A stretch of DNA of 43,125 bases, taken from positions 1 to 43,125 of the forward strand of contig MAEO01000121.1 in the NCBI GenBank assembly GCA_001683985.1, given 5' to 3'. The notes beneath the pieces were generated by a model. That model did not search any database, was not told the DNA's origin, and saw only the letters and a list, made by a program, of their open reading frames with translations. This document shows positions 28,864 through 36,239 of this stretch, one piece after another. The translations under genes and the position numbers were made by a program. Source of the DNA: Smithella sp. M82. Lineage in GTDB: Bacteria > Desulfobacterota > Syntrophia > Syntrophales > Smithellaceae. Numbering within the stretch: the first letter of the stretch is position 1; every line of letters starts with the position of its first letter.

Positions 28864-29361
28864 TTAAGATTCTTTCTCATCTTTCTGATTTTTCCTTGTC
28901 GGTATAGCAAACAAATCAAAAAGTGATTTAAATGTTGAAAGACCGGCTAAAGTCTTCGGAAAGTCTCCCGACTTCGCAGGATTCATTTTTGAGTAACTCT
29001 CGCCGTATTCAAGCCATTTTTTAAATTGCTCGTCAGCCATATTTCTGAACAAAAGATAAGTTTTGATTGTTTGTTCCATGTACTTCCCAAAGAAATCTGT
29101 CAGTACATTTTCACCGTACTGAATAATCAAGTGTAATAGAGGCGCTGGAAGCAGATATTTCTTCTTTCGCGCTTCTTCAAAAACAATTTGTGTTAGTATC
29201 GCTGAAGTGACATCTTCACCTGTTTTGGCATCCGTAACTTTAATTTGCCGTCCTTTTTTGATAACATCGGTTACATAATCAAGCGTTACATAGATACTTT
29301 TCTCCGTTTCATAAAGCCGGCGATTAGTGTATTTTTTTAGCAGAAGAACATTATCATTCAT
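28864..29361 (-). CDS. phaR: Polyhydroxyalkanoate synthesis repressor PhaR
   Basis: 165 aa. The N-terminal ~60 residues 'LLLKKYTNRRLYETEKSIYVTLD...VIKKGRQIKVTDAKTGEDVT' form the PHA accumulation-regulator DNA-binding domain, and the following 'ILTQIVFEE' block is the PHB-granule-sensing region. Known PhaR proteins bind phasin promoters and are titrated off DNA by nascent granules. It is divergent from two phasin genes, with palindromes in the shared 240-base gap (see 29518-29528), which supports direct control. Confidence 0.92.
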   Translation of the reverse strand: MNDNVLLLKKYTNRRLYETEKSIYVTLDYVTDVIKKGRQIKVTDAKTGEDVTSAILTQIVFEEARKKKYLLPAPLLHLIIQYGENVLTDFFGKYMEQTIKTYLLFRNMADEQFKKWLEYGESYSKMNPAKSGDFPKTLAGLSTFKSLFDLFAIPTRKNQKDEKES

Positions 29362-29403
29362 ACTTGCACCTCTTGTCTCTTTCTTACAATATTACTATAA
29401 TTC

Positions 29404-29412
29404 TTGCAACAT
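29404..29412. promoter_or_regulatory. Candidate PhaR half-site near phaR
   Basis: TTGCAACAT occurs here, 43 bases upstream of the phaR start, and again at 29523-29531 overlapping the palindrome before the phasin promoter. Two identical 9-mers in one short divergent region suggest a shared regulator, and autoregulation of phaR would fit the family. Confidence 0.45.
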
Positions 29413-29517
29413 AAAATATTCATTATTATGAAAATATAACCGCCTCGTAACTGCAATTATTTGTATTCATTGCATTATTACGTATTTCGCTGTCATAAAT
29501 CGGCTCCACAAAAAATA

Positions 29518-29528
29518 TTGCATTGCAA
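29518..29528. promoter_or_regulatory. Candidate PhaR operator upstream of phasin genes
   Basis: TTGCATTGCAA is a perfect palindrome around its central base. It lies 10 bases upstream of the -35 box of the phasin promoter, and its right half is shared with TTGCAACAT. Known PhaR sites in other bacteria are TGC-rich palindromes (from memory), so the match in style and place is good but unproven. Confidence 0.55.
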
Positions 29529-29538
29529 CATTTTTCTA

Positions 29539-29566
29539 TTGACAAACAAAAAATGCTGTTTATAAT
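29539..29566 (+). promoter_or_regulatory. Strong sigma-70 promoter of the phasin genes
   Basis: Perfect TTGACA (29539-29544) and perfect TATAAT (29561-29566) with a 16-base spacer. A GAGGAGGG ribosome site and the ATG at 29602 follow. A consensus promoter of this strength fits an abundant granule-coat protein held under repression. Confidence 0.85.
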
Positions 29567-29601
29567 ACAGATACAGAACAAAATACGAGAGGAGGGTATT
29601 T

Positions 29602-29922
29602 ATGGAAAACAAGAAAATTGCCAAGCAAATGGTAGATTTTAATAAGGCGGCATTCGAATCAGGTTATAACACCATATTTATGTTGCAGGAGCAATCAGCG
29701 AAAGCTCTTGATAACATGCTCCAACAAAACCCATGGCTTCCGGCGCAAACCAAGTCATTTATGAATGAATGGATGAACATTTATAAAAAAGTCATCAACA
29801 ATTTCAAAGAAGCTGTCGACCAGAATTATTCCAGGATGGAAGAATACATACAGAATTATTCCAGGATGGAAGAATACATAGCGTCAGAGGGTGAAACACC
29901 CAAAACAAAGACCAAAAAATAA
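29602..29922 (+). CDS. phaP: Phasin family protein (first of pair)
   Basis: 106 aa, largely amphipathic helix ('KIAKQMVDFNKAAFESGYNTIFML', 'FMNEWMNIYKKVINNFKEAVDQNYSRMEEYI'). It is a paralogue of the next gene across its whole length. Phasins coat PHA granules and control their size. The C-terminal region contains an exact duplication of the ten residues QNYSRMEEYI encoded by a perfect 30-base tandem repeat, then 'ASEGETPKTKTKK', a basic tail. Very strong promoter and ribosome site. Confidence 0.85.
   Translation: MENKKIAKQMVDFNKAAFESGYNTIFMLQEQSAKALDNMLQQNPWLPAQTKSFMNEWMNIYKKVINNFKEAVDQNYSRMEEYIQNYSRMEEYIASEGETPKTKTKK
29821..29880 (+). repeat. Perfect 30-base tandem duplication inside phaP
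   Basis: Positions 29821-29850 and 29851-29880 are identical base for base, in frame, each encoding QNYSRMEEYI. Complete identity, including third positions, points to a very recent or frequently renewed duplication. Confidence 0.97.
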
Positions 29923-29988
29923 ATAAATAAATAAAAAGCAGGGCATCATTAAGACAAACAATAAATAAAAAATAAAATGGAGGTAACT

Positions 29989-30249
29989 ATGGACCCTAAA
30001 CAAATTGCTAAACAAATGTTAGATTTTAACAAAGCAGCTTTTGATAATTCATTTGAGGCAATGTCCGTTATTCAGGATCAGGCCGAAAAAATGATTAACA
30101 CTATAATGGAACAGACAGCTTTTTTACCGGAGGAAGGCAAGAAAGCCGTTAACGACTGGATCAAAGCATGCAAAAAAGGCCGCGAGGACTTCAAGGCCGC
30201 AACCGATGAAAATTTCAAAAAAGTAGAAACCTTCTTCGCATCCAAGTAG
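29989..30249 (+). CDS. phaP: Phasin family protein (second of pair)
   Basis: 86 aa. 'PKQIAKQMLDFNKAAFDNSFEAM' aligns directly with the upstream phasin, and the C-terminal 'DFKAATDENFKKVETFFASK' aligns with the segment that is duplicated there. GGAGGT four bases before the ATG at 29989 decides the start over an in-frame ATG at 29977 that overlaps the ribosome site. It shares the promoter at 29539 and ends at a strong terminator. The 66-base gap between the two phasins is A-rich with no promoter. Confidence 0.85.
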   Translation: MDPKQIAKQMLDFNKAAFDNSFEAMSVIQDQAEKMINTIMEQTAFLPEEGKKAVNDWIKACKKGREDFKAATDENFKKVETFFASK

Positions 30250-30266
30250 AAAAATTTATTTCTTTT

Positions 30267-30302
30267 AAAAAAGCCGATGTTTTCAATCGCGTCGGCTTTT
30301 TT
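30267..30302. terminator. Bidirectional terminator between phasins and phaJ
   Basis: AAAAAAGCCGA pairs with TCGGCTTTTTT around a 14-base loop; both strands end in T-runs. It serves the plus-strand phasins and probably the minus-strand pha operon. Confidence 0.88.
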
Positions 30303-30357
30303 GTTAAGCTTAGTTTTTAAAATCGCATGAGTGCATGTCTCTGGCATGTCTTGATTT

Positions 30358-30423
30358 ATACCATTTCAATTTTAATCGGAAGCTGCACACATCCAACAGG
30401 ATAATTTATAATCGAATTGGTAT
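30358..30423. repeat. Second ATACCAWTTC inverted-repeat element
   Basis: ATACCATTTC (30358-30367) and GAATTGGTAT (30414-30423) are inverted with one mismatch, and the similarity continues several AT-rich bases inward. The right end abuts and overlaps the phaJ stop codon. The termini match those of the element at 88-223, though the interior differs and is shorter. It may be a shortened or decayed copy of the same family. Confidence 0.5.
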
Positions 30424-30854
30424 CATGCACCGGAGGTTTTCGGCGGACTGACAATTCCTTCCCCGGAAATTACCATGACACCATCCTGATTACTGCAGGT
30501 TGTTTTTAGCCGGACACGGTTTTTCTCTGCATTAATTTCGATAACTTCGACCCGACCGGTAATGGTGTCGCCCATATGCACCGGAGCAAGAAAATTCAAT
30601 TCCTGTTTTAAATAGATAGTTCCCGGACCGGGTAACTGATTGGCAATAACAGCTGAAATCAATCCTGCAGCAAGCATTCCGTGCGCGATGCGGGTTTTAA
30701 AAAAAGTGTTTTTCGCATATGCCTCATTAACGTGAGCCGGATTGAAATCACCGGTAATACCGGCATATAGATATATATCCGTCTCCGATATTGTTTTAGC
30801 AAATTCCGCCACGTCCCCTACCTGAAGTTTATCAATACTTTTTCCCGTAATCAC
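30423..30854 (-). CDS. phaJ: (R)-specific enoyl-CoA hydratase (MaoC-like, PhaJ)
   Basis: 143 aa hot-dog-fold hydratase. The hydratase-2 motif 'YAGITGDFNPAHVNEAYA' has the catalytic Asp36 and His41, at the same spacing as in characterised PhaJ proteins. It would convert trans-2-enoyl-CoA from beta-oxidation to (R)-3-hydroxyacyl-CoA, the monomer for PHA synthase. GTG start preceded by AGGAGGTGGGG. Last gene of the phaE-phaC-GAF-phaJ operon, 31 bases after the GAF gene. A generic MaoC role is possible, but the neighbours favour PhaJ. Confidence 0.88.
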   Translation of the reverse strand: MITGKSIDKLQVGDVAEFAKTISETDIYLYAGITGDFNPAHVNEAYAKNTFFKTRIAHGMLAAGLISAVIANQLPGPGTIYLKQELNFLAPVHMGDTITGRVEVIEINAEKNRVRLKTTCSNQDGVMVISGEGIVSPPKTSGA

Positions 30855-30885
30855 AAAAACCCCACCTCCTTATATCTTTCTGGTC

Positions 30886-31935
30886 TTAGAACCAACACTT
30901 GTATATATTATCTTTCAAATCCTTTATATCGTCCTGCATGGCCATATACAAACAGGCATTATTAATAGCCAACCCTCCCTGATAAGCTAAAACGGTCACC
31001 AGTAAAACTTCATCTTCAGTAAATTCTTTCTGCCTGCTGCTGTATATATTTAAAACCCCGATGACATTGTCCTTTGACCTAATGGGAACGTAAAGCATAG
31101 AAACAATGCCCTCTTCTTTTTTTTCCTTTTTGTACTGAATTCCATCATCTTCAAACACATTTTTAATATTTATCGTTTGCCCTTTTAAAGCTCTCCCAAT
31201 GTTTTTATCAGCCATAATCGGCCCTTTGTTGAGGTATTTATCGCTCAAACCGAAACTTGCAACCAGCTTTAGAGTGCGAGTCTTATCATCCAGCAATCTC
31301 ACTGAAGCGGCTTTAATACGCAAATCTTTTACAAGGTCTTCGGTCATCGCCTGCAAAATATTTTTGACATCAAGGCTTGCTGAGATGCTTGTGGCCAGTT
31401 TCAGGAATATTTTTGATTGATTGCGAAGCTGACGAATAAGGTTGGCAGTTTCAATCGCGGCGCCTCCCTGCTCGGCCAGAATAGACAAAAAATCAATTTC
31501 GTCTTTGGTAAATGTTCGTATATTTTTTGTATAGAGACTCAATATGCCCAGCATTTGTCCCTTAACAATCACCGGCACCGACAAAATCGATCCGATGCCT
31601 TCCTCTTTTTTCGCTTTATGATTCATCAAACGTTTGTCCGTTGTTGCATCACGAAAATACATATAGCCGTCTTTAAGCAATTGCGGACTGATTTTTACGG
31701 CATGAGCCGTTCCCGCATGGATATATTTTTCAGAGAGTCCAACCTGAACAACAGCAACATTGCGAATAAACTCCTGCGAGTCTTCTTCATTGAGAAAAAT
31801 GACAGCGGCCTTGGCTTTGAGAGTCTCTGCCGCCATAGTCACAATTAACTGAAGCATCTTATCCTGATCGTCCGTTTTGCCGAGCTCTCTGCTCAATCTT
31901 GTCAAACTTTTAAAATACTCTTTTTGAAATGACAT
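30886..31935 (-). CDS. Tandem GAF-domain protein within the pha operon
   Basis: 349 aa with two GAF domains, about residues 25-165 and 185-330 (each ends in the pattern 'SILSVPVIVKGQMLGILSLYT...FTKDEIDFLSILAEQGGAAI' / 'SMLYVPIRSKDNVIGVLNIYS...FTEDEVLLVTVLAYQGGLAI'). There is no kinase, HTH, GGDEF or phosphatase domain, so it would be a stand-alone sensor or adaptor binding a small ligand. Lying between phaC and phaJ with gaps of 53 and 31 bases, it is almost surely co-expressed with PHA synthesis. Ligand unknown. Confidence 0.85.
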   Translation of the reverse strand: MSFQKEYFKSLTRLSRELGKTDDQDKMLQLIVTMAAETLKAKAAVIFLNEEDSQEFIRNVAVVQVGLSEKYIHAGTAHAVKISPQLLKDGYMYFRDATTDKRLMNHKAKKEEGIGSILSVPVIVKGQMLGILSLYTKNIRTFTKDEIDFLSILAEQGGAAIETANLIRQLRNQSKIFLKLATSISASLDVKNILQAMTEDLVKDLRIKAASVRLLDDKTRTLKLVASFGLSDKYLNKGPIMADKNIGRALKGQTINIKNVFEDDGIQYKKEKKEEGIVSMLYVPIRSKDNVIGVLNIYSSRQKEFTEDEVLLVTVLAYQGGLAINNACLYMAMQDDIKDLKDNIYKCWF

Positions 31936-31988
31936 TTACTTTTCTACCTTTCTTGTCTGACTGGAGTAATTTCTTTACAAGCAATAGT

Positions 31989-33215
31989 TTATCTTTCCCG
32001 TAAAGCGCTTGAATTTAATGTAGAGCCGGCCCGGGAATCATCGGCATGACGGACACGTTTTACTTTTGACACACCGTTTTTAGCGGATTTTTTTCTGACA
32101 TCCGCTAATCTATTTTGCATAACAACATCCTCTTTATCGCGTTCTTTCAGCCACTGAACGATCTTCGGAGCAAATAATTTCTGAAACTTGGAACTCACGT
32201 AAATGCCGATATGACCGGTTTCCAGACAAACATCTTCCACATCCCTGCTGCCTATGGCTTTAGACAGCTGATTGCAGGCCTCAGGCGGAACCAGATGGTC
32301 GTATTTACCGAAAAAATTCAAAAGCGGCATGGTCAGCTTTTTCAGATCGACTCGACGGCCGCCAAGAAACATCTTGCTTTGAATAAGCAAATTCTTTTTA
32401 TAGCAATCTTCGATAAACTGGCGGAAAGTTTCTCCGGGAACATCAGGACTGTCGAAAATCCAACGCTCCATGCGGACAAAATTTTCCACAAAATCCTTGT
32501 TATCCATATTATTCATAAAACTTACATATTTATCGATCATCAGACGCGCCGGATTAAGCAATAAAAATCCCAGATTCATCAAATCTCCGGGAATATTGCC
32601 GAAAGTTTTAATCATTCGATCCACGTCGACGTCCTTCATCCAGACATGCAAAAGTCCTCTATCCGTGTCGAAACTTGACGGCGTAACTGTAGTAATCAGG
32701 TTCTTTATTTTATCCGGATGAAGTGCGGAGTACATGATGCTGAAAGTTCCACCCATACATATGCCCATAAGGTTAATCTTCGGAACATGATGTTTTTCAC
32801 GGATGAAATCGACAATATTATTCATATAACCATTGACATGATCGTCAATCGTAAGGAAGTGATCCTTACGTGTGGGATAGCCCCAGTCTATCATGTAAAG
32901 ATCAATGCCTCCCTCCAGAAACGTTTTGACAACGCTTCGGTCAGGCTGCAAATCCAGCATGGTTTCGCGGTTGATCAGCGCGTAAACCACCAGCAGTGGA
33001 ACCTTCAACTTATTTTCCGCGTTCTCGTTACGAAAATAATGTTTAACTTTGACACGGTCCTCCTCATACACTATCTCATAAGGAGTCGAGGCGATTTCAT
33101 AGTTGAGTTGTCCCTGTAAAATTTCGGATGCCTTGGTTACCCGCTTTTGCGCCTTTTCGGCGTCTTCGGCTATTTTTTCCAGAATCAGATCTAAAGGAAT
33201 TTTTGTCGAATCCAT
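31989..33215 (-). CDS. phaC: Class III polyhydroxyalkanoate synthase subunit PhaC
   Basis: 408 aa. Polymerises (R)-3-hydroxyacyl-CoA with PhaE on the granule surface. Lipase-like box 'GICMGG' with nucleophile C153, Asp306 in 'KYDHLVPPE' and His335 in 'TGHIG'. These positions are within a few residues of the characterised class III triad. Length exceeds the usual ~355-365 because of a basic C-terminal tail of ~45 residues ('RKKSAKNGVSKVKRVRH...'), which might bind DNA, granule or PhaE (inference). It follows phaE by 56 bases. Confidence 0.93.
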   Translation of the reverse strand: MDSTKIPLDLILEKIAEDAEKAQKRVTKASEILQGQLNYEIASTPYEIVYEEDRVKVKHYFRNENAENKLKVPLLVVYALINRETMLDLQPDRSVVKTFLEGGIDLYMIDWGYPTRKDHFLTIDDHVNGYMNNIVDFIREKHHVPKINLMGICMGGTFSIMYSALHPDKIKNLITTVTPSSFDTDRGLLHVWMKDVDVDRMIKTFGNIPGDLMNLGFLLLNPARLMIDKYVSFMNNMDNKDFVENFVRMERWIFDSPDVPGETFRQFIEDCYKKNLLIQSKMFLGGRRVDLKKLTMPLLNFFGKYDHLVPPEACNQLSKAIGSRDVEDVCLETGHIGIYVSSKFQKLFAPKIVQWLKERDKEDVVMQNRLADVRKKSAKNGVSKVKRVRHADDSRAGSTLNSSALRER

Positions 33216-33271
33216 AAGAAAATCTTCACCCCCAAAAAATCAAATTGTTCCCTTTAAAAATCAAGAATGTT

Positions 33272-34183
33272 TTACTTTATGACAGTCAGTGTGTTCGGCG
33301 AAATGTTGAACTGTTTTTCCAGTTCTTTCACCCTCTTCTTCAGGATATGGAATTCCTTGTATAGCTCTTCCATCTCCTTTTGCGTTACAACAGGCAACAT
33401 TTGCAGAAAATCTTCCAACATCCTGTTTCGGACAATGATAAAATCCTCCAGCGTATTGAGCGTCTGATGCAAAGTGTCGGTATATTCTTTGGACCTGAAT
33501 AGACTGATATAGTGGCCTTCCAGTATCTTTATCCATATCGCATAAAAATCTTTTGTCTCTTGGGGAAGATTCCCTTCTTCCGCCATTTGTTTTAGTCTTT
33601 CCTGAAAAACATTAAACGACTTTTCCAGCGGCAAATATAAAACAGAAAGAAATTCAGCCAGCATTGTTTCAAATATATTGTACTTATCCAGCATTTCGTT
33701 GAACCGTTCCTGATAAAAACGGGTCAGTCCCAGGGAAGGAATTTTAAAGTATGGTCTAAACTCTTTTTCATAAATATCGCTGAATGCTTTAAATATTTCC
33801 TGATCCGGATTCTCAAAATTATACGCTTCCGTGCATTTGCCGATCTTGCCTGCTTTTTCCACCAAATGATTTTGTATTTGCATGGCAGCTTCGAACCCGG
33901 ATTTCGCCATTTTCATAAGAATTTCCGGCATGGCAGCTAAAGAATTAGCCGCCGCCGATGCCGATTCCGGCTCACTCATCATCCGGGAGAAGGACTTAAG
34001 AAGGTTCAAATTTGTATCCAACTGCCGGGTGAAACGGCTTTGTCCCGCTGTTTGCGTCATTATGGACGTATCAGGGTTGGAAGGCAGCGCTTTAATCAGA
34101 TTTAACCACATATCCGCCGCTACCGTAAGCCACGGGAAAAAAGGGACTTCTTTTAACGGAAATTGTTTGTCTTCGTCAGCCAT
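33272..34183 (-). CDS. phaE: Class III PHA synthase subunit PhaE
   Basis: 303 aa, helical and non-catalytic, required for activity of class III PhaC. The N-terminal 'PFFPWLTVAADMWLNL', the central 'FSDIYEKEFRPYFKIPSLGLTRFYQERFNEMLDKYN' region (33-residue block), and the C-terminal coiled coil 'QKEMEELYKEFHILKKRVKELEKQ' are typical of PhaE. GAGGTGG upstream of the ATG at 34183 makes that start better than the ATG at 34195. First gene of the operon, divergent from the second synthase-like gene. Confidence 0.88.
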   Translation of the reverse strand: MADEDKQFPLKEVPFFPWLTVAADMWLNLIKALPSNPDTSIMTQTAGQSRFTRQLDTNLNLLKSFSRMMSEPESASAAANSLAAMPEILMKMAKSGFEAAMQIQNHLVEKAGKIGKCTEAYNFENPDQEIFKAFSDIYEKEFRPYFKIPSLGLTRFYQERFNEMLDKYNIFETMLAEFLSVLYLPLEKSFNVFQERLKQMAEEGNLPQETKDFYAIWIKILEGHYISLFRSKEYTDTLHQTLNTLEDFIIVRNRMLEDFLQMLPVVTQKEMEELYKEFHILKKRVKELEKQFNISPNTLTVIK

Positions 34184-34282
34184 TTTCCACCTCATGCTGA
34201 AAAAAAACTATTGAAGAAATTGTTGATTGAATGTTAAAATGTTAAAAAGAACCGTATTTATTTTTAATATAGATGTGCTTAT

Positions 34283-34316
34283 TTGTCAACGTATTTCAAT
34301 GCATATTAGTTGACAA
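34283..34316. promoter_or_regulatory. Inverted TTGTCAAC...GTTGACAA in the divergent phaE/synthase-2 gap
   Basis: TTGTCAAC (34283-34290) and GTTGACAA (34309-34316) are perfect inverted copies with an 18-base spacer. Each contains a TTGACA reading outward, as expected for back-to-back -35 boxes or an operator serving both genes. On the minus strand an AT-rich TAAAAA lies 17 bases downstream; a matching -10 on the plus strand is poor. Confidence 0.55.
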
Positions 34317-34352
34317 TTATTATGTTACGAAATCCAGGCAGGAGGTGAAAAA

Positions 34353-36239
34353 ATGTCCATTGAGAACAATACAAAAATAACACCGGATGAATTGATGCAG
34401 GTTTGTGGTTTTTCTCCGGCTGATAACACAGAAAATATTCCTACGTCGCTTCCATGGAAAAGCAAAATGGTTGGCCGGCAAATTAGAAGCTTGTTCGACT
34501 ATAAAAGAACTCTTGATTACATCAGTAAGGATTTATGGCTTTACGGACCATTCGCGGTCTCCGCGATGTGGCAAAGCGCAATACTTGATTCTACTATATT
34601 GCGGCAGGTAAAGGCCGGCGCCCGCCTTGCTGTCGGCGCTTCCAGAAATCCCGATGCTATTGCCGATATGAACGGCTGGATATACAAAAGCTACTCCCGC
34701 CTTCTTTATACCTTAACCGGTTTTTTTATCAAAGACGGGAAATTCAACCGGGAAAAAGCTCAAATGATTTGCACGACACCAAAGGGCAAAGAATACTTAA
34801 AAAACTACATGGATGAATTTGCCCAACTGGAATATCTATATAACAACGTTGGACTGACCCGGCTAAAAGCCATGAAAGAGCTTTTAAAGTGTCTGGTAGT
34901 TTTAATCACGGAGCAACCTTTCTCCGACGGCTATCTGCCTTTTGCCAAAAAAAATCAGGATGGCACACTGGCGACTTCTTTTGAACAATACCTTGCTGAA
35001 AACCGCACCCGTCTGGAAAATTTGTATGAAGCAAACGCATTCGACATTAAAGAATTTTCCGAAAGAGCAACTTTAGGGAAAATCGGCTGTTCCCATTACG
35101 AATGGGTGGAAGGATCATTAAACCACCGCGTCAGACTGCGTTACTACCCCCTTCCCGAAGGCATTAATGCAAACGGTAAAATTATCTATATGACAACTCC
35201 ACTCATCAATAAACCGGAGCTTTTCGACCTCGCTTCGGGAAAATCCGTAGTGGAAGCTCTGCTGAAAAAAGGCTACATCATTTACATGGTCGACCACGGC
35301 GATCCCGGGTGGGAAGAAACCGAACTGGGACTGGATTTTTACGGAAAAACAATTCCCGATCTATATCTGGATATAATCAAAAACAGGCATCCTCAGAATG
35401 AAATATACATCATGGCCTATTGCATGGGCGGCACGCTTATTCTTCCATACCTGGCCAGACGGGCGGAAGAACGTTTAGCCGCCGGACTTCCCATGGACAT
35501 AAAAAAAATAGCCCTGATGGCTTCACCGATGAAATTCGATGATGAAGACAGCGGACACAAGCCTATTCGTTCGCTCATCCGCCACGATTACGATCCTTAT
35601 CTGATGAAAGAACTCTTCGGCCCTGTAAATATTCCTCCGCAGATTATCGAAGCGGGTATGAATGAAATACAGCCCGGAGTACAGCATACGGTCGTTTTGG
35701 GTTTTTACGGACGCGCGGAAATAAAAGAATCAATTGCCGATTCGGCGCCGTTTCTTTACTGGCTGACACGCGGAACTAAATTTCCTATATCCGCTCACAT
35801 TCAGTGGATTCAAAACATATTCATCGGCAATCAGATTTATGAAGGAAAATATTGTCTTCCTTCCGGCAATCCTAAATTCGACGGCAAACCGGTTAACATG
35901 TCCGTACTGAAAAAAGCCGGGGTCAGAATATTTGATTATAAAGGTTCAAGAGATCCTATAGCGCCGCCCGGCTCCTGCGTTGCCGGCGAAACATGGGGGC
36001 AGGTAGCCGAAGGGAATGTTAAATTCACCGGCGCCGGCCTCAATCGAACCGTTGAGAAAAATATCGGACATATCTTTGTCGTCAGCCGCAAACTGCTTGC
36101 TGAATATCTCGGTTTGGTCGAAGAATTTTACAATGAACCTTCAGTCAGTCGGCCGGTTATAGTAAAAACAAAAGATAAAGCAAAACCTGGCGCTGCAAGG
36201 AATGTCGTAGATATTAAAAAAGTTCAGATGGAAAAATAA
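34353..36239 (+). CDS. Second, divergent PHA synthase-like alpha/beta hydrolase
   Basis: 628 aa, much longer than the class III PhaC and without a neighbouring PhaE on its strand. A helical N-terminal domain of ~240 residues precedes an alpha/beta core. The nucleophile elbow is 'MAYCMGGTL' with Cys357, but the first residue of the usual G-x-C-x-G-G box is Ala355. Asp534 ('GSRDPIAPP') and His573 ('NIGHIFVV') complete the triad, and 'VDHGDPGWEE' mirrors the PhaC 'IDWGYP' strand. A basic, Lys/Ala-rich tail ends the protein. GGAGGTG precedes the ATG. Likely a PHA synthase of class I-like size or a related acyltransferase/depolymerase. Confidence 0.8.
   Translation: MSIENNTKITPDELMQVCGFSPADNTENIPTSLPWKSKMVGRQIRSLFDYKRTLDYISKDLWLYGPFAVSAMWQSAILDSTILRQVKAGARLAVGASRNPDAIADMNGWIYKSYSRLLYTLTGFFIKDGKFNREKAQMICTTPKGKEYLKNYMDEFAQLEYLYNNVGLTRLKAMKELLKCLVVLITEQPFSDGYLPFAKKNQDGTLATSFEQYLAENRTRLENLYEANAFDIKEFSERATLGKIGCSHYEWVEGSLNHRVRLRYYPLPEGINANGKIIYMTTPLINKPELFDLASGKSVVEALLKKGYIIYMVDHGDPGWEETELGLDFYGKTIPDLYLDIIKNRHPQNEIYIMAYCMGGTLILPYLARRAEERLAAGLPMDIKKIALMASPMKFDDEDSGHKPIRSLIRHDYDPYLMKELFGPVNIPPQIIEAGMNEIQPGVQHTVVLGFYGRAEIKESIADSAPFLYWLTRGTKFPISAHIQWIQNIFIGNQIYEGKYCLPSGNPKFDGKPVNMSVLKKAGVRIFDYKGSRDPIAPPGSCVAGETWGQVAEGNVKFTGAGLNRTVEKNIGHIFVVSRKLLAEYLGLVEEFYNEPSVSRPVIVKTKDKAKPGAARNVVDIKKVQMEK

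Follow-up and report, generated by a model that had tools for sequence, protein, structure and literature searches.

A polyhydroxyalkanoate granule island with a divergent PhaC-like enzyme in a Smithella-like genome

The stretch of DNA analysed here (the window, 43,125 nucleotides) belongs to a Smithella-like MAG and carries, at positions 28864-36239, an island comprising phaR, two phasins, phaJ, a double-GAF gene, a class III phaC, phaE and a gene for a 628-residue PhaC-like protein. The latter is divergent from phaE and has been given the working name LPC, for both gene and protein. Anaerobes that degrade propionate, fatty acids and alkanes in syntrophy live close to the thermodynamic limit, and can set carbon and electrons aside in a stored polymer. 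The question raised by this locus is what a second, unusual PhaC-like enzyme does beside a class III synthase, and whether it is a synthase at all. The analysis shows directly which genes and families are present, the predicted fold, how far the triad is conserved, the co-inheritance and where the operator lies; we infer all reactions and regulation.

Gene content and control of the island

All of the open reading frames of the initial annotation are present at their coordinates, with the following features:

28864..29361, minus strand: phaR, PHA accumulation regulator, 165 aa (PF07879 86 bits; TIGR01848 96 bits, just under the 109 cut-off)
29404..29411, minus strand: TTGCAACA half-site just upstream of phaR (TGCAACA identical in 7/7 aligned loci)
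29518..29528, plus strand: putative PhaR-type operator TTGCATTGCAA, ahead of the phasin promoter
29539..29566, plus strand: promoter of phasin 1, TTGACA-16-TATAAT (12/12; TTGACA kept in 7/7 aligned loci)
29602..29922, plus strand: phasin-like protein 1, 106 aa (family with 3/22 members matching PF09361)
29977..30249, plus strand: phasin-like protein 2, 90 aa (same family; 38% identity to phasin 1)
30423..30854, minus strand: phaJ-like (R)-enoyl-CoA hydratase, MaoC domain, 143 aa, GTG start (PF01575 85 bits)
30886..31935, minus strand: double-GAF protein without output domain, 349 aa (PF13185, 115 bits, two stretches)
31989..33215, minus strand: phaC, class III PHA synthase catalytic subunit, 408 aa (TIGR01836 427 bits, cut-off 365)
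33272..34195, minus strand: phaE, class III synthase subunit, 307 aa (PF09712 77 bits, cut-off 25.7)
34196..34352, no strand: divergent control region, 157 bp, between the phaE start (34195, minus) and the LPC start (34353, plus)
34353..36239, plus strand: LPC, 628-aa PhaC-like enzyme (helical N-terminal domain 1-240; alpha/beta core 243-597; C357, D534, H573)

Neighbourhoods of relatives have shown that the arrangement is kept across the genus and beyond and is therefore no product of chance; the conservation of the PHA genes as a set, named beforehand as a check, was thus borne out. Judged from its sequences, the island is a real, conserved gene set for making and coating polyhydroxyalkanoate (PHA) storage granules. 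Its sole unusual member is a further enzyme resembling a synthase, very divergent and co-inherited with the normal synthase. As to the view that class III PhaEC is usually the sole synthase in a locus, several phaC paralogues per genome are not rare in other organisms (PMC12863089); an adjacent divergent copy this different is nonetheless unusual.

By their family matches, the genes at 31989-34195 are recognised as a class III PHA synthase system (PhaE-PhaC, TIGR01836 / PF09712), with the phaE score against TIGR01834 (59 bits) lying under the cut-off of 155. PhaJ would convert enoyl-CoA intermediates to (R)-3-hydroxyacyl-CoA, PhaE-PhaC would polymerise the latter, and the two phasins would coat the PHA granule. 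The GAF gene that had been annotated as part of the operon does lie within the PhaE-PhaC-GAF-PhaJ set, and its homologues occur at PhaC loci in many families of the phylum; the protein is probably expressed together with PhaEC, as its sensor or its partner. The two phasin-like proteins are mutually homologous, and the islands of relatives carry pairs or triplets of them. The best match of the family to Phasin_2 (PF09361) has an E value of 2e-4; the two proteins from the window gave no confident Pfam match themselves, and a comparison of the phasin alignment with solved structures returned nothing convincing.

The gene at 28864-29361 can be identified as the PhaR regulator from its PHB_acc_N domain and from the predicted operator at the phasin promoter. 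A TTGCA[AT]TGCAA sequence is found at an equal position before this promoter in six of the seven aligned loci, including the window, the seventh having TTGCACTGCAC. The operator sequence agrees with the published PhaR consensus, CTGCN3GCAG / YGCRNYGCR (PMC12542648). The TTGCN3GCAA pattern by itself is not rare, with 2 occurrences in the window against 1.4 expected, and the operator is called because its position is conserved. PhaR would act at the conserved TTGCAWTGCAA site to repress the phasin promoter until it is titrated off by PHA, and the half-site at phaR may serve in autoregulation. As in the PhaR-phasin control of Cupriavidus, Paracoccus and Sinorhizobium (PMC12542648), there is a PF07879 regulator and a YGCRNYGCR-type palindrome near the phasin -35; unlike in those systems, the predicted site of the island was found only in the phaR-phasin gap.

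This distribution bears on the short control region that phaE and LPC had been proposed to share. The 157-bp divergent gap is there, but common control is doubtful, since the PhaR-type operator occurs only before the phasin promoter. A conserved operator of this type was sought in the phaE-LPC gap and found neither in the window nor in 10 of 11 relatives; the one TGCN3GCA in the remaining relative, at the LPC start, is not conserved, and a PhaR operator in this gap was rejected. Within the gap, TTGTCAA constitutes the phaE -35 on the minus strand and GGAGG precedes LPC at 34341-34345, and LPC would be expressed divergently from phaE.

Sequence, fold and phylogeny of LPC

LPC shows a weak but consistent similarity to PhaC. 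All 30 family members searched match the PHA synthase models (TIGR01836/01838/01839), the scores of LPC itself (77, 37 and 27 bits) lying below all three cut-offs (365, 623 and 855), while none of the 30 match TIGR01849, PF06850 or PF07167, and Pfam assigns LPC only to general alpha/beta hydrolase families. In profile comparisons, the LPC core was closest to class III (E 6e-36), followed by class I (1e-16) and a set of the PF06850 type (5e-13). The Cys357-Asp534-His573 triad is invariant in 32 of 32 members, and the PhaC-like lipase box Y-C-M-[GA]-G-[TS] is present in 31, the other one having I for Y. Most of the aligned PF06850-type sequences have C-Q-G-G-W at this box. The catalytic Asp is followed by Pro in 30 of the 32 members and by Val or Leu in two, whereas the aligned PhaCs have an Asp-His pair. 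Taken together, profiles and motif favour synthases over the known depolymerases as the kin of LPC.

The predicted model of LPC (pLDDT 80.8, pTM 0.79, with low confidence in the loop bearing H573) has PHA synthases as its best structural matches (Z 26-29), namely the solved class I PhaC structures of Aeromonas caviae, Cupriavidus necator and Chromobacterium, followed by acid/gastric lipases (Z about 23). With class I synthases (TIGR01838, PF07167) LPC shares a single chain of about 600 residues, in which a helical N-terminal part precedes an alpha/beta core; nevertheless, identity is 15% and the N-terminal domains have no profile match to each other, PhaC_N being absent from LPC by the PF07167 search of the 30 members. 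Against PhaE and against class I N-termini alike, residues 1-245 gave a profile probability of 0.1, and a fusion of PhaE and PhaC was rejected on these values. Folded alone, the N-terminal domain reached a pLDDT of 87, and searches of solved structures gave it no confident match (best E 3 with Foldseek, best Z 5.8 with VIA). LPC is thus modelled as a PhaC-type fold with a private helical N-terminal domain of about 240 residues, for which no match was found.

LPC proteins constitute a coherent, uncharacterised PhaC-like family, separate, deeply branching and 50-90% identical across Syntrophales, which lies far under the curated synthase cut-offs and is co-inherited with a class III synthase in this order. 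In the tree they form their own clade (support 100/100) beside PhaC classes I, III and IV, class II not having been sampled. The stem of this clade is very long, and the deep splits came out in another order once one long row was removed. The best trees separate LPC from the PF06850 depolymerases; however, the AU test did not reject joining both as one clade (p 0.23), and a placing of LPC on the synthase side (support 100/99), not upheld by this test, was dropped. The phylogeny that had been proposed as a check has accordingly placed LPC outside PhaC classes I, III and IV, and not clearly in a non-polymerising hydrolase family. In a search of largely open-access literature on Smithella or Syntrophus PHA synthases, no study of the LPC gene was found.

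Inheritance of LPC with the class III synthase

LPC adjoins phaE divergently in the loci of the genus, is mirrored or codirectional in other families, and is located away from phaEC in several genera. Among 155 Syntrophales genomes, 53 have both LPC and PhaC, 4 only LPC, 18 only PhaC and 80 neither, so that class III PhaC is present in 53 of the 57 LPC genomes; the P value of this co-occurrence ignores shared ancestry. Within the genus, 12 genomes have both and 5 have neither. PHA synthesis can do without LPC, given the 18 genomes that have PhaC and no LPC. LPC, PhaC and a clear PF06850 protein occur together in six relatives, two of which carry them within one island, and both a full LPC and PF06850 are missing from five genomes with PhaC. 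This pattern argues that LPC is no substitute for the depolymerase PhaZ; its role as a PhaZ replacement is unsupported by co-occurrence.

Possible roles of LPC

The reading preferred here, with a probability of roughly 0.55, is that of an ordinary class III PHA granule island accompanied by a lineage-specific PhaC-like acyltransferase. LPC would most likely be a Cys-Asp-His acyltransferase of the PhaC type acting on the same hydroxyacyl-CoA/PHA pool, as an accessory synthase or as a primer- or chain-transfer enzyme, with its private helical domain serving to bind a partner or the granule in place of PhaE or PhaC_N. It may tentatively be taken further, as an additional structural class of PHA synthase: a single-chain enzyme in which this domain stands in for PhaE/PhaC_N and which syntrophic anaerobes would retain alongside PhaEC, either for a second polymer or to determine how long the chains of the first are or which monomers they contain.

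One particular version of the preferred reading, that LPC is a second true synthase with another substrate range, yielding two polymers or a copolymer, is possible at a similarly tentative level. It finds support in the PhaC-type box, triad and predicted fold, and in Haloferax mediterranei, where phaC paralogues differ in monomer use (PMC12863089). There too, extra synthase-like genes occur besides the main PhaEC in one genome; unlike LPC in the island, they are located away from the main pha genes, and the one sampled carries a class III annotation and groups apart from LPC. The very long stem, the loss of the Asp-His pair and the lack of a detectable PhaC_N or PhaE-like domain speak against it, as does the near-constant company of PhaC, since making a second polymer independently would not require it. 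Of the second synthase initially annotated, the presence of a second PhaC-like enzyme stands and its identity as a synthase does not follow, in view of its own clade, the two missing PhaC features (PhaC_N and Asp-His) and the AU result.

It is rather unlikely that LPC opposes PhaEC as an intracellular PHA depolymerase or as an enzyme that mobilises PHA by thiolysis, which would make this an island for both synthesis and breakdown. Such an enzyme would suit the window's genome, in which no depolymerase was found by homology (no PF06850 apart from a PhaC cross-match, no PF10503 and nothing above the NF050089 cut-off). PhaC-related PF06850 proteins likewise combine an alpha/beta hydrolase fold with a Cys box, and the AU test does not reject LPC and PhaZ as one clade. 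Against this stand the CMGGT-like box of LPC in place of CQGGW, the absence of matches to depolymerase models among the 30 members, and the co-occurrence pattern; with no PF06850 or TIGR01849 match, depolymerase by homology was set aside as an assignment and retained only as a rival. That LPC is an unrelated lipase or thioesterase merely adjoining the island is improbable: its general Pfam assignments and its location away from phaEC in several genera would fit, but the genome-level association with PhaC is strong even where the genes are unlinked, presence and absence are joint within the genus, and the profile and fold matches are PhaC-specific.

Should LPC polymerise, it would add an enzyme class for bioplastics; should it degrade, it would give the window's genome an enzyme for mobilising PHA, which by homology this genome seems not to have.

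Family and fold of the long PhaC-like protein

28864-36239: PHA island, with phaR, two phasin-like genes, phaJ, a double-GAF gene, phaC, phaE and the LPC gene
34353-36239 (+): LPC, a 628-residue PhaC-like protein divergent from phaE

PHA synthase models were matched by 30/30 full-length LPC members, class III best, and none of the 30 matched depolymerase models or PhaC_N (PF07167). Profile comparison of the LPC core likewise ranked class III (6e-36) above class I (1e-16) and a PF06850-type set (5e-13). In structural comparison, the predicted AlphaFold2 fold (pLDDT 80.8) best matched PHA synthases (VIA Z 26-29), ahead of lipases of gastric and lysosomal type (Z about 23). The triad C357, D534 and H573 is invariant in 32/32 members, and the YCM[GA]G[TS] box (31/32) resembles that of PhaC and differs from the CQGGW box of PF06850-type relatives. 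Compared to PhaC, LPC has Asp-Pro (30/32) in place of Asp-His and carries a private helical domain (residues 1-240), for which neither profile nor structural comparison gave a match. LPC is a coherent, uncharacterised PhaC-like family with its own N-terminal domain. The idea of two polymers from the island is allowed as a hypothesis.

In the phylogeny called for by the initial annotation, LPC formed a single, fully supported clade on a long stem, apart from the three PhaC classes in the sample (I, III and IV). A first tree grouped LPC with synthases against PF06850 proteins (support 100/99). Dropping one very long row altered the deep order, placing LPC beside class I (41/0), and an AU test did not reject an LPC plus PF06850 grouping (p 0.23), so that any deep placement of LPC is tentative.

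Gene content and control of the island

Contig C74, which makes up the window, belongs to a 2.74-Mb genome in 235 contigs. Every gene initially listed is present, and family scans bore out a class III island with phaR, two phasin-like genes, a phaJ-like MaoC hydratase, a double-GAF gene, phaC and phaE; as a whole it is ordinary in kind. The phasin identity of the two small genes rests on family context: a Pfam scan gave no confident match for the window's copies, and Phasin_2 was matched by 3/22 relatives. Phasin 1 contains a perfect 30-bp tandem duplication (29821-29880, NYSRMEEYIQ-type unit x2) not present in aligned copies from relatives. Double-GAF homologues of similar length recur at PhaC loci in many families of the phylum, and within that phylum the protein therefore appears to partner class III PhaEC generally. 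Beyond phaJ, the window's genome encodes several SDR reductases that score under the cut-off for acetoacetyl-CoA reductase (236 bits at best, against 302), so a PhaB route of monomer supply may exist.

For LPC, the closest named record is locus L002 of a Smithella MAG (SDB_sulfate1; 90% identity), which places the organism in Syntrophales as a Smithella-like member. At L002 (9905-11800 and 2268-3617), an acetyl-CoA hydrolase/transferase-GNAT fusion comes after LPC and a gene for a BrkB-type membrane protein stands between phasin 2 and phaJ; neither is present in the window's island. On a Legionella anisa plasmid (L078), the genes after a class I-like PhaC of 590 aa encode enoyl-CoA hydratase/phosphate acetyltransferase, acetate kinase and FabI.

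The phasin 1 promoter in the window is a perfect TTGACA-16-TATAAT, and the palindrome TTGCATTGCAA lies 10 bp upstream. It occupies the same position at 6/7 aligned loci, window included, is slightly altered in the seventh (L016), and agrees with both published PhaR sites, CTGCN3GCAG and YGCRNYGCR (PMC12542648). The control region proposed to be shared by phaE and LPC is a divergent 157-bp gap, in which a search turned up no PhaR-type site in the window or relatives other than a single partial match that is not conserved. PhaR, by predicted binding, thus probably controls the phasins and perhaps phaR itself, not the divergent pair. PhaR-type palindromes also lie near the phasins at L093 and L094 (genomes G058 and G040).

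Distribution of LPC and the depolymerase alternative

With presence set at E < 1e-100 for LPC and E < 1e-60 for class III PhaC, 155 Syntrophales genomes divided into 53 with both, 4 with LPC only, 18 with PhaC only and 80 with neither (LPC in 57, PhaC in 71; Fisher P 5e-21, ignoring ancestry). In the window's own genus both genes are present in 12 genomes and both missing from 5, and full-length LPC occurs in 8/395 genomes evenly sampled across the phylum. The gene set proved to be retained within the genus (L002, L021, L112) and at loci L012 and L104; it is kept with LPC codirectional at L016, L093 and L094, and LPC is located away from phaEC in other genera. By distribution and linkage, then, LPC is an accessory in genomes that bear PhaEC and is dispensable for PhaEC.

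LPC could alternatively be an intracellular PHA depolymerase, a reading kept alive by the searches for a mobilising enzyme in the window's genome, where PF06850 gave only a cross-match to PhaC, PF10503 no match and NF050089 only matches below cut-off. However, six relatives carry LPC, PhaC and a clear PF06850 protein together, and five PhaC genomes carry neither full LPC nor PF06850; by this genomic distribution, LPC does not behave as a depolymerase replacement. In another family (L093, L094), the island holds a PF06850 depolymerase gene as well as LPC.

Some genomes have a second LPC copy, about 50% identical (L100:8664-10418, L101:9810-11846, also G531). In several Smithella genomes (L004, L007, L020), the genes downstream of LPC encode tandem TPR proteins of 525-660 aa whose N-terminal part is mannosyltransferase-like. 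The 100% complete genome G502 has LPC (53%) and no class III PhaC at E 1e-60, providing a natural test case for LPC without PhaEC.
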